Assembly: GCA_944380265.1 (NCBI GenBank)
Contig: CALWGY010000001.1
Location: 67,790 to 131,789 of the forward strand
Origin: an uncultured Clostridia bacterium
Lineage (GTDB): Bacteria > Bacillota > Clostridia > Christensenellales > UBA1242
DNA: 64,000 bases
Reading direction: 5' to 3'
Part shown: in pieces, positions 28,904-46,131 of the stretch
Numbering within the stretch: position 1 is the stretch's first letter
How the letters are laid out: every line of letters begins with the position of its first letter
Translations under genes and position numbers: made by a program
The notes under the pieces: generated by a model
What the model was told of the DNA's origin: nothing
Seen by the model: the letters and a program-made list of their open reading frames with translations, nothing else
Databases searched by the model: none

Positions 28904-28945
28904 GTTGGTTTTGAAAATTTGAAAAAATATGGTAAAATGTTAACA

Positions 28946-29023
28946 CTGCGATGTTAAAATTTAACCAGGTTAAATTTTTTCTTTTGCTAACGCAAAATTG
29001 CACAACACTTTGTGCCATTGCAG
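28946..29023. repeat. Cloverleaf-like palindromic element, copy A
   Basis: A terminal stem CTGCGATG / CATTGCAG (one G-T pair) encloses three adjacent hairpins: AAAATTTAACC/GGTTAAATTTT, TTTTGC/GCAAAA with loop TAAC, and GCACAA/TTGTGC with loop CACT. The same terminal-stem-plus-three-hairpin plan is seen at 44281-44365. Its function is unknown; it lies within the pta-ackA gap. Confidence 0.6.
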
Positions 29024-29045
29024 TTAAAATAACTTAATAAAATAT

Positions 29046-40999: not shown

Positions 41000-41485
41000 T
41001 TGACAAAAGAAAAACTAACAATAAAAAAAGTGGTTAATCCAAACAAAGCAACATTAAAAATAATAACAGATTGGTTTTTTAATTGGTGGGGCAAAAAAAA
41101 TGGATTAACTTATGAAGAAGTTCAATGTTATGCTGAACATAGTGTTAACGATTCAAAGTTACCACAAATTTTTGGATTGTTTCTAAATAATAAAATAATT
41201 GGCATGTATGAATTTGTTTTATCAGATTTTGAAGTGCGTCCAGATATTTATCCTTGGCTTGCTAATGTTTATATTGATGAAAAATATAGAGGCAAAGGCT
41301 ATGGCAGGGTGATGTTAGAAACAGTAAAAAAATCAGCACAAGAAAATTTAAATTTTAATGAGATTTATTTATATACACATCACATTGGATTATATGAAAA
41401 ATTTGGCTGGGAATTTGTGTCAGATTTTAACACATTTAGTAAAGTTCCTAAAATTCAAAGATTATACAAATTAAAGTTAAAATAA
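41000..41485 (+). CDS. GNAT-family N-acetyltransferase
   Basis: A 161-residue GNAT-fold enzyme with the acetyl-CoA-binding motif RGKGYGRVML after the strand LANVYIDEKY, and a final substrate strand LYEKFGWEF. The substrate is unknown. It starts at TTG 41000, with GGAGA about 9 nt upstream. It is wedged between trmD and rbgA, where Bacillota usually carry rplS. Its stop codon lies within the first ATAATATAAA box of the tandem structured repeats, which suggests it arrived or was remodelled along with them. Confidence 0.85.
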   Translation: MTKEKLTIKKVVNPNKATLKIITDWFFNWWGKKNGLTYEEVQCYAEHSVNDSKLPQIFGLFLNNKIIGMYEFVLSDFEVRPDIYPWLANVYIDEKYRGKGYGRVMLETVKKSAQENLNFNEIYLYTHHIGLYEKFGWEFVSDFNTFSKVPKIQRLYKLKLK

Positions 41486-41628
41486 TATAAACTATGTGAT
41501 GTTGATTTGCTCACGATGCTTACAAACCAAATTGCTAAACGCAAATCCACTTAAAAGTGGCATCACAGTTTGAATAACCATCAGTTTTGCTTGCAAATAC
41601 CTAACCGCGCTTGCAGACAAAACTTCCG
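41482..41628. repeat. Tandem structured repeat, unit 1 (147 bp)
   Basis: Starts at box ATAATATAAACT. Stem AAACT-(AT)-GTGATG (41489-41501) pairs with CATCAC-AGTTT (41561-41571). Inside are GATTTGC/GCAAATC and a CCACT/AGTGG hairpin. A second stem AGTTTTG (41583-41589) pairs with CAAAACT (41618-41624). It ends in TTCCG before the next box. No coding potential is seen. Confidence 0.75.
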
Positions 41629-41777
41629 ATAATATAAACTAAGCGGCGTTAAAATTTTACTAACATAAAATTTTACTAAATTCTAACTAATTTTTTGTGC
41701 TTTCGCACAATACCGCAGTTTGAATTAACATCAGTTGTATGCAAATATCCCTGCGGGTTGCTTGCCTACAACTTCCG
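41629..41777. repeat. Tandem structured repeat, unit 2 (149 bp), plus closing box
   Basis: Starts with the same box and keeps AAACT-(AA)-GCGG (41636-41646) paired with CCGC-AGTTT (41713-41721). Inside are three hairpins (AAAATTTTA/TAAAATTTT, AAATT/AATTT, TTGTGC/GCACAA). The second stem is AGTTGTA (41733-41739) with TACAACT (41767-41773). A third box ATAATATAAA (41778-41787) closes the array 13 nt before rbgA. Confidence 0.75.
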
Positions 41778-41800
41778 ATAATATAAAAAATGGAATTTAT

Positions 41801-43793: not shown

Positions 43794-44153
43794 ATGAACT
43801 TAATTGATTTAATTGAAAAAGAAAATTTAAAACCTGAATTACCTGAATTTGGTGTTGGTGACACTGTTAAAGTTTTCATCAAAATTGTTGAAGGTGGCAA
43901 GGAACGTATTCAAGCATTTGAAGGCGTTGTAATTTCTAAAAAACATTCCAGTGTTAGAGAAACTTTCACAGTTCGTCGTGTTTCATTTGGCGTTGGTGTG
44001 GAAAAAACTTTCCCATTGCACAGCCCACGTATTGACCACATTGAAGTGTTAAAGAAAGGTAAAGTTAGACGTGCAAAACTTTATTACTTGCGTGAACTTT
44101 CAGGTAAAGCATCAAAAATCAAAGAAAAACAAACAACAAAATCAGAAAAATAA
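43794..44153 (+). CDS. rplS: Ribosomal protein bL19
   Basis: A 119-residue large-subunit protein located at the 30S-50S interface. Conserved segments are [46 protein letters not shown] and [16 protein letters not shown] lies 9 nt upstream. It is transcribed alone, between its own promoter and terminator, instead of following trmD. Confidence 0.97.
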
Positions 44154-44186: not shown

Positions 44187-44522
44187 TTGCGAATTTTGGT
44201 TTTATCAAATTAGATGTTAAACTATGTGCGGCAAACTGTGTAAACAAGATGTGTAAATTTTATGAACAATGGTGGCAAATTGTGCGATGTTAAAATTTTA
44301 CGAAAGTAAAATTTTAAAAAATTCTACCGAATTTTTGTGCTTGTGCACAAGCACAACATCGCACAGTGTTCAAACACCAGCAAAATTTAACAATCATTTT
44401 CACTGTGCTAATCTCTAATTTTCCATAACAAAATTATATTTAGTATTATATATAATTTATATATAATAAAGATAATAATTTAGTTTATTATAATAATTAT
44501 ACTTATGTTGTGTAATATTTTG
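44187..44522. other. Intergenic region with divergent relative of the structured repeats
   Basis: No gene is seen between rplS and comM. TTAAACTATGTGCGG near 44216-44230 resembles the start of tandem unit 1 (AAACTATGTG). The 85-nt cloverleaf palindrome follows at 44281. GCACAGTG (44361-44368) can also pair with CACTGTGC (44401-44408). AATTTTCCATAACA near 44421 resembles the unit ends AACTTCCGATAATA. The rest is A/T-rich sequence before the comM promoter. Confidence 0.5.
44281..44365. repeat. 85-nt four-way-junction palindrome, copy C
   Basis: A perfect 11-bp terminal stem TGTGCGATGTT / AACATCGCACA encloses three abutting hairpins: AAAATTTTAC-GAAA-GTAAAATTTT, AAAAATTC-TACC-GAATTTTT, and the full palindrome GTGCTTG-TGCA-CAAGCAC. 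Only one base lies unpaired between arms. The first loop is a GNRA tetraloop closed by C-G. It is not a tRNA. Confidence 0.75.
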
Positions 44523-44595: not shown

Positions 44596-46131
44596 ATGCT
44601 TTCAATAATTAAAAGTTTTGGATTAAATGGAATTGATGGCTACGAGGTTTGTGCCGAAGTTGACATAAACCAAGGCATTCCCAGTTACGACATTGTTGGT
44701 CTTGTTGGCACAGCCATAAAAGAAAGCAAGGAAAGGGTTAGAAGTGCCATAAAAAACAGCGGATTTAACTATCCAATAACAAGAATAACAGTTAACTTAG
44801 CACCTGCAAACACGCACAAAGATGGCCCGGTTTACGACCTTGCCATTGCTGTTGGAATTTTGTCGGCAACAAACCAAATAAAAATTGAAAACACAAAAAA
44901 TTTTGTGTTTTTGGGTGAACTTTCACTAGATGGAACAATTAGAAAAATTAATGGTGTTTTGCCAATTTTAATTTCGGCAAAACAACTTGGAATAACAAAC
45001 TTAATAATTCCTTACGACAACAAAAATGAAGCAAGTTTTTTGAAGGGCTTAAATGTTTATGCTGTTAAAAGTTTAAAGGAAGTTGTTAGTTTTTTAAACG
45101 ACGAAACAAAACTTGAACCAATTTTGTTTTGTGACTATAACGAAACAATTAAAAATTTTGAAAGCCCATATAATTTTAAAAATGTTAAAGGGCAAAGTGC
45201 TGCAAAACGAGCACTTGAAATTGCAGCCGCTGGCGGACACAACATTTTAATGGTTGGACCACCAGGAAGCGGAAAAACTTTGCTTGCAAAATGTTTTCCA
45301 AGCATACTTCCAAACTTAACATTTGAAGAAGCACTAGAAGTAACAAAAATTCACAGTGTTGCTGGCGTTTTAGACAATTCGGTTGGCATTGTTTGTTCAA
45401 GGCCATTCCGTTCTCCACATCACACCACAACAACTGTGGCATTAACTGGTGGTGGCAGAACTGCAAAACCGGGCGAAATAAGTTTGGCACACAACGGAGT
45501 GTTGTTTTTAGATGAATTGCCAGAATATTCAAGGCACGCCATTGAAACATTAAGGCAACCGCTTGAAGATGGTGTTATTAACGTTTCCAGAATTGAAAAC
45601 ACAGTGGAATATCCTGCAAACTTCACATTAATTGCAAGCATGAACCCTTGCCCATGTGGAAACTTTGGAAACAGAGAAAAGGAATGTAAGTGCACACCAC
45701 AACAAATTCACAAATATCTTGCAAAACTTTCGGGTCCATTAATGGACAGAATTGATATTCATCTAGAAGTAGATAATGTTAAGTTTTCCGACTTAAAAAG
45801 CACAACAGAAGAAGAAAGCAGTGAACAAATTAAACAGCGTGTTGACAAAGCACGACAAATTCAATTAAACAGGTTTAAGGGCGCAAAAAATTATAGCAAT
45901 TCAAAAATGAACGATGTTCAACTAAAAAAGTTTTGTAAATTAGATGCTGAAAGTGAAGAAATTTTAAAACTTGCTTTCGAAAATTTTGGGTTAAGTGCCA
46001 GGGCTTATTCCAGAATTTTAAAACTAGCCAGAACCATTGCCGACCTTGATGGACAGGAAAATATTCATGCAAACCATTTAATGGAAGCCATTTCATATAG
46101 AACCATAGATAAAAAATATTGGAATAATTAA
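44596..46131 (+). CDS. comM: ComM/YifB-type AAA+ helicase-like ATPase
   Basis: A 511-residue Mg-chelatase-like protein with an N-terminal Lon-type domain (VDINQGIPSYDIVGL), Walker A GPPGSGKTLL, Walker B VLFLDELPEYS and a C-terminal Mg-chelatase segment (GLSARAYSRILKLARTIADL). ComM promotes branch migration during integration of transformed DNA. It is followed after 2 nt by dprA, another transformation protein, so the pair suggests recombination of incoming DNA. Confidence 0.94.
   Translation: MLSIIKSFGLNGIDGYEVCAEVDINQGIPSYDIVGLVGTAIKESKERVRSAIKNSGFNYPITRITVNLAPANTHKDGPVYDLAIAVGILSATNQIKIENTKNFVFLGELSLDGTIRKINGVLPILISAKQLGITNLIIPYDNKNEASFLKGLNVYAVKSLKEVVSFLNDETKLEPILFCDYNETIKNFESPYNFKNVKGQSAAKRALEIAAAGGHNILMVGPPGSGKTLLAKCFPSILPNLTFEEALEVTKIHSVAGVLDNSVGIVCSRPFRSPHHTTTTVALTGGGRTAKPGEISLAHNGVLFLDELPEYSRHAIETLRQPLEDGVINVSRIENTVEYPANFTLIASMNPCPCGNFGNREKECKCTPQQIHKYLAKLSGPLMDRIDIHLEVDNVKFSDLKSTTEEESSEQIKQRVDKARQIQLNRFKGAKNYSNSKMNDVQLKKFCKLDAESEEILKLAFENFGLSARAYSRILKLARTIADLDGQENIHANHLMEAISYRTIDKKYWNN

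Follow-up and report, generated by a model that had tools for sequence, protein, structure and literature searches.

Repeat locus in the trmD-rbgA gap

The analysed window, a stretch of 64,000 nucleotides from the genome of an uncultured Clostridia bacterium (G000; 1,207,958 bp in 16 contigs), carries two tandem repeat units between a GNAT gene and rbgA (Table 1). Three exact boxes, ATAATATAAA, reported in the earlier note on this DNA at 41482, 41629 and 41778, were confirmed together with their spacing of 147 and 149 bp, the left one overlapping the stop codon of the GNAT gene (TAA, 41483-41485). While the box positions hold, the start of the box does not mark the unit border, the best cut being GATAA^TATAAA. 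The stems are also as described, i.e., AAACT-AT-GTGATG/CATCACAGTTT and AGTTTTG/CAAAACT in unit 1, and AAACT-AA-GCGG/CCGCAGTTT and AGTTGTA/TACAACT in unit 2. Near-identical copies of unit 1 were detected by blastn at C8:17854 (97 %) and C5:92759 (94 %).

The GNAT gene (41000-41485) shares the trmD-rbgA gap with the array and terminates within the left box. In three congeners, trmD directly precedes rbgA, with neither the GNAT gene nor repeat units in the gap. Judged from gene order, GNAT gene and repeat array are evidently both additions to this gap in the window's genome.

Table 1 Features of the repeat in the window
Feature	Position	Strand	Description
Unit 1	41486-41632	+	147 bp, TATAAACT...ACTTCCGATAA
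Unit 2	41633-41781	+	149 bp; other allele combination, ends as unit 1
Left attachment junction	41482-41491	+	Box ATAATATAAA; host ..TAA (GNAT stop) joined to element end TATAAACT
Internal unit-unit junction	41622-41649	+	dif-like 28-mer ACTTCCGATAA-TATAAA-CTAAGCGGCGT
Right attachment junction	41771-41787	+	Right end ACTTCCGATAA joined to host TATAAA
Unit 1, P1 domain	41489-41571	+	AAACT-(AT bulge)-GTGATG / CATCAC-AGTTT around small hairpins
Conserved P1-P2 linker	41572-41582	+	GAATAACCATC
Unit 1, P2 hairpin	41583-41624	+	AGTTTTG...CAAAACT
Unit 2, P1 domain	41636-41721	+	AAACT-(AA)-GCGG...CCGC-AGTTT, three hairpins inside
Unit 2, P2 hairpin	41733-41773	+	AGTTGTA...TACAACT
Degenerate copy, P1 domain only	28936-29042	+	Intergenic gap 5' of acetate-kinase-like gene
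Degenerate copy	44272-44430	+	Between 119-aa ORF (43794-44153) and comM-like ORF (44596-46131)

Copy number, arrays and distribution

Searches with a covariance model (R1) revealed many further copies, both in the window's genome and in relatives. In the former, 39 matches were obtained, about three of which are antisense echoes of the palindromes, compared to ~31 matches to the locus by blastn (E<=1e-3); the ~36 units are spread over 12 of the 16 contigs. Units have a length of ~147-163 bp across the family and occur singly or as direct head-to-tail arrays that comprise two to four of them, with no gene between tandem units. All are intergenic; the gaps that hold them are divergent or co-directional, in one case convergent, and the units have either orientation relative to the genes. 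Since arrays often terminate contigs (C3, C9 and C16 in the window's genome as well as numerous contigs of the CALWOV and CALWMK MAGs), the copy numbers represent lower bounds.

Among 59 sampled genomes, eight (counting the window's own) yielded R1 matches. With the same model, neither the three congeners nor the 24 genomes belonging to other families of the order gave a match, while the distribution of the repeat within the same family is patchy (78 of 297 genomes, 21 of 42 genera). A sequence pattern retrieved 96 stretches from GTDB representatives; among the 80 of these that were listed, all belong to Clostridia, Clostridiales or Firmicutes MAGs, several of them with herbivore-host names, and Candidatus Caccovivens faecavium is the sole named taxon. 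The phage, plasmid and viral-contig sets searched contained no match to the repeat, 72,556 plasmid records gave no blastn match to the locus, and the open-licence literature searched contained no published description of the family.

We regard it as near certain that the units represent miniature mobile DNA repeats of a new family. The family is spread through gut Clostridia, protein-free and previously undescribed. A decayed known mobile element, which the earlier note had named as an explanation that would overturn its reading, was not found to match, the repeat being a mobile type of its own. Two further conditions named there, a lack of other copies and of significant covariation, did not apply. 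The earlier view of an RNA or DNA structure outside the known riboswitch, ribozyme and repeat families holds on most points. In Rfam searches at gathering as well as relaxed thresholds, no match was obtained in the window at the gathering threshold, and the best one at the locus (E 1.4) is far below the gathering score.

Fold and covariation

Each unit is composed of P1, the conserved linker and P2. P1 comprises AAACT, a 2-nt bulge and a 4-6-bp stem around up to three small hairpins. For both window units, the predicted fold of either strand is more stable than that of dinucleotide shuffles (z -2.9 to -4.4). The compensatory stem changes seen between these two units proved to be part of a significant covariation: among 96 distinct matches found outside the window's genome, the paired fraction of pair cells is 90.2 %, two-sided changes occur in 47 of 49 pairs, and the score of this model-fitted alignment is 0.492 versus 0.135+/-0.005 in shuffled and 0.04-0.08 in slid controls. 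An unfitted MAFFT alignment of 11 units (A2) scores 0.213 versus 0.096 in shuffles (0/500), with 88.3 % of the cells pairing and two-sided changes at 19 pairs versus 7.4 in shuffles.

P1 and P2 each occur in several alleles, which are freely combined between units. Among the units of all genomes, different P2 alleles repeatedly show a tandem A-C/T-G mismatch in the stem (AT opposite GC), as if it were recognised as an asymmetric mark.

Probable structure at the DNA level

The 78 covarying pairs comprise 3221 Watson-Crick, 53 G-T and 60 A-C combinations (binomial p 0.57). The lack of a wobble excess on either strand indicates that selection (or a mutational process) sees both strands alike, and the similar frequencies of G-T and A-C give the palindromes a DNA-level appearance. 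In tRNAs from the same loci, 18 G-T and no A-C were counted in 336 cells, an outcome toward which ARAGORN biases this control. The palindromes thus seem to be maintained as DNA rather than as RNA.

Strong covariation, a cloverleaf-like P1 and stable folds on either strand would also be expected of a selected RNA, i.e., of tandem structured small RNAs or of 3'-UTR/terminator elements. This is, however, very improbable, given that G-T is not commoner than A-C (contrasting the tRNA control), that units occupy divergent gaps and both orientations relative to genes, and that the repeat is mobile, patchy, missing from congeners and without an Rfam match. Of the selected RNA or DNA structure proposed earlier, the covariation stands, and the evidence favours DNA over a small RNA, in view of the equal G-T and A-C frequencies, the placement in divergent and co-directional gaps in either orientation, the insertion of the units and the identity of the box with the junction of a site-specific insertion. 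Terminators or regulatory RNAs were rejected on the basis of strand symmetry and gene orientation.

Near absence of wobble intermediates, strand symmetry and the shuffling of domain alleles among units could alternatively reflect perfect palindromes maintained through mutation, by template switching between the hairpin arms, instead of by selection on structure, with spread by homologous recombination and duplication. Correction of one arm by the other would, however, erase the 2-nt bulge and the A-C/T-G pair of P2, both of which survive, and exact ends together with empty sites demonstrate true insertion, rendering this explanation quite improbable.

Insertion sites

In G294, one unit interrupts a stem-loop downstream of a dnaA-like gene, at TTTTA^TAGAC, whereas the orthologous stem-loop AATCTATAAG(n)CTTATAGATTTT is uninterrupted in four relatives (G308, G309, G165 and G325). 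This empty orthologous site identifies the G294 unit as a clean insertion at TA, without a longer target duplication. A general flank signal for insertion inside palindromes was not detected (p 0.78), the site downstream of dnaA being the one clear case.

Among isolated units, conservation of the outer flanks is confined to positions -4 to -1 on the left host side (A.61, T.75, A.88, A.82), and on the right host side, which reads TATAAA-nTA, comprises +5 and +6 (A.81 and.73) as well as +8 and +9 (T.62, A.70); right-flank positions +1 to +4 are imposed by the search pattern in the MAG copies, so that positions from +5 onward and the covariance-model copies are those that count. The resulting pattern, ATAA-N6-nTA, corresponds to the inner portion of the two dif arms. 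Lost units may have left some of the right flanks behind as remnants. No covariation was seen between left and right flanks, which argues against target duplication. Insertion is into intergenic ATAA^TATAAA-like cores, with no target duplication beyond the shared TA or TATA. Derivation from a DDE transposon (MITE) was rejected, since the ends match as inverted repeats at only 3 of 12 positions and target duplication is lacking.

Direct repeats between flanks were sought and found in two cases, both in G257, where the units at L281 and L280 lie between imperfect 18-19-bp direct repeats (AAATTGTTACCAGT and TATATGGAAAATATT); these are not general. Near 2005 in L108 (C3:109504 of the window's genome), an incomplete right end (..CGATAATTCCGATAATATGATTG) comes after another right end, an arrangement that looks like the scar of a lost neighbouring unit.

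A dif-like junction

The right and left ends of adjacent units commonly form a 28-bp site, ACTTCCGATAA-TATAAA-CTATGTGATGT, with 11-6-11 layout, CTATGTGATGT being the commonest right arm outside the window. With B. subtilis dif (PMC3025954) as reference, this common junction is identical at 21 of 28 positions and represents the best 28-mer in the unit (0/300 shuffles, shuffle maximum 18). The junction allele of the window shares 18 of 28 positions, a value reached by 6 of 300 shuffles. Comparison with dif of E. coli and Frankia gave a weaker or no signal. The crossover deduced from the flank statistics, ACTTCCGATAA^TATAAA, coincides with the boundary between XerC arm and centre in the dif alignment.

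The inverted arms of an 11-6-11 Xer/dif site are displayed by the SIG417/RGIG4566 junction (ACTTCCGATAA-TATAAA-CTATCGGAAGT, 10/11 inverted repeat) and by one junction of G049 (ACTTCCGTTAA-TATAAA-TTATAGGAAGT, 9/11, the complement of TTATAGGAAGT being ACTTCCTATAA), compared to only 7/11 in the commonest allele. By inspection, the linker with its flanks, when inverted (AACT-gatggttattc-AAACT), repeats the junction (AACT-tccgataatat-AAACT) in degenerate form and in the same frame. Circular single-stranded units fold in silico as P1 and P2 hairpins flanking the junction.

A host dif was sought in 59 genomes with B. subtilis-type, looser-core, difSL-like and symmetric ACTTCC-arm patterns, yielding nothing or matches at chance level. 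A lone 11-6-11 near-palindrome, ACTTCCCATAA-GGAACA-TTATGCGAAGT (L279, C4:59368-59395 of the window's genome), is located between genes of a possibly conjugative element and could be a genuine Xer-type site.

The dif likeness might be an AT-rich coincidence in a clade-specific repeat of the bcr1 type, moved by site-specific recombination or transposition unrelated to Xer. For the repeats of the B. cereus group (BCR), which are likewise clade-restricted, mobility resembling site-specific recombination and linked to repeated TTTAT boxes has been suspected (PMC6542083). The complement of the present core, AGTTTATA, contains TTTAT, and the failure to find a host dif would fit as well. Compared by description only, both repeats share a size within 100-400 bp, tens of copies and the TTTAT motif, but the present one belongs to another clade and has a dif-like 28-bp junction, modular alleles and head-to-tail arrays. 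This explanation is regarded as unlikely, because the dif match falls exactly on the independently deduced crossover and, for the common allele, exceeds all shuffles, and because some alleles possess the 11-6-11 layout with inverted arms.

Proposed mode of movement

We propose that the repeat is non-autonomous and that a Xer-type tyrosine recombinase mobilises it, perhaps in the form of folded single-stranded DNA, a reading to which we assign a probability of roughly one half. Insertion by such a recombinase appears most likely, at about even odds, HUH-type (see below) and bcr1-like movement being the main rivals. We infer the recombinase step; a dependence on XerC/D, XerS or XerH would follow from the layout of the junction only. 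According to this proposal, a Xer-type tyrosine recombinase of the host would cut at the boundary between arm and centre, and a circular unit, perhaps single-stranded and folded into hairpins, would undergo strand exchange with secondary dif-core sites; exchange with the junction of a resident unit would give rise to arrays. A single-stranded form is proposed because a Xer reaction on double-stranded DNA would be mechanically hard with a 150-bp circle. On a miniature scale, this would follow the logic of Xer-exploiting elements of the CTXphi type and of integron attC sites. A further-reaching reading, considered less likely than not, is that of a new class of mobile element, in which ~150 nt of gene-free DNA would hijack chromosome-dimer resolution by a single, XerS-like recombinase and combine transposition as hairpin-folded single strand into secondary dif-core sites with integron-like arrays of their own recombination site and swappable hairpin modules.

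For CTXphi, attP has been described as a ~150-bp fold of two att sites on single-stranded DNA, 90 nt apart (PMC5357621); in the present repeat, the junction and its inverted degenerate copy lie opposite one another across a ~150-nt unit. With CTXphi and other elements that exploit Xer recombination (IMEX), the repeat has a dif-like attachment site in common and, by inference, the use of a host recombinase. Known IMEX are, however, phage genomes or islands at dif, whereas the repeat is ~150 bp long, gene-free and present at many intergenic sites. Integration at a chromosomal dif is typical of IMEX; the copies of the repeat are scattered, and no chromosomal dif was identified with the patterns tried.

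Integron attC sites and Vibrio cholerae repeats are 60-150-bp palindromes, imperfect and containing unpaired bases, which are arranged in head-to-tail arrays and serve as substrates of a Xer-related recombinase. Imperfect palindromes, unpaired bases and head-to-tail arrays are found here too; an assignment to attC was nevertheless rejected, as the end cores RYYYAAC/GTTRRRY are lacking (one internal RYYYAAC occurs in the P2 loop) and no genes lie between units. Modular organization is also known from BOX repeats. Pneumococcal BOX and RUP are small interspersed repeats of bacterial chromosomes (PMC3049150); compared by description only, the present repeat differs in that its ends form a recombination-like site.

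With its defined crossover point, target, empty sites and dif-like junction, the repeat renders Xer-driven spread of a gene-free element directly testable. To our knowledge, a mover has been assigned to only a minority of the small repeats of bacteria. If correct, the proposal would link chromosome-dimer resolution with CTXphi-like integration of folded single strands and with the evolution of integron attC sites, provide a handle on dif in these uncultured gut Clostridia, which form a large clade, and explain assembly breaks in their genomes.

Candidate enzymes

Single-strand movement could alternatively be of the HUH type, with the repeat as a non-autonomous relative of REP/REPIN and IS200/IS605 elements: a trans-acting Y1 transposase would recognise the hairpins, cleave 3' of a short AT target and insert the strand without target duplication. 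REP/REPIN and IS200/IS605-derived elements are hairpin-based, non-autonomous, intergenic and multi-copy (PMC3733652, PMC3116915), as is the present repeat. The bulged, imperfect hairpins with their conserved mismatches, the lack of target duplication and of inverted terminal repeats, strictly head-to-tail arrays and strand-symmetric palindromes would all agree with such a mode. However, the repeat-rich genomes G000, G017, G047 and G049 lack Y1_Tnp (PF01797), which is present in 13 other genomes of the set. Moreover, the short fixed target of IS200/IS605 lies solely in the left flank, while host bases here show conservation to the left as well as to the right of the cut; the unit is far longer than those of REP/REPIN and IS200/IS605-derived elements, and its junction matches dif. 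HUH-type movement is therefore doubtful.

As to the proposed Xer-type movement, a core tyrosine recombinase of ~350 aa is encoded in 16 of 17 genomes searched, mostly with a lexA-like gene downstream; G023 gave only a fragment match. For the protein of the window's genome (L148, C1:196111-196659; orthologues L142-L156), the best NCBIfam match is XerS with 185 bits, which is below the curated cut-off of 267. In G017, which carries five units, the core recombinase is the sole PF00589 match. This XerS-like protein of the clade is a candidate mover. Around its gene, no recognisable dif or difSL was found, only the downstream lexA-like gene with a LexA-box-like motif.

Open reading frames beside units in ~30 genomes belong mainly to housekeeping clusters, and no transposase or integrase was detected among them as an autonomous partner. 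A NUDIX-like gene between inverted arrays (G047, C19) and the genes around C25 of G049 were considered as such partners and rejected, as they look ordinary. A 314-aa tyrosine recombinase encoded on C8, with relatives in G047, G044 and G014, was dismissed as mover because of its phage/invertase-like appearance. Tyrosine recombinases of ~315 aa are common to the window's genome (L160, C8:51573) and G047 (L161, C18:13466). They possibly represent a phase-variation invertase; in G047, the gene adjoins DNA-methyltransferase-like and Fic-like genes.
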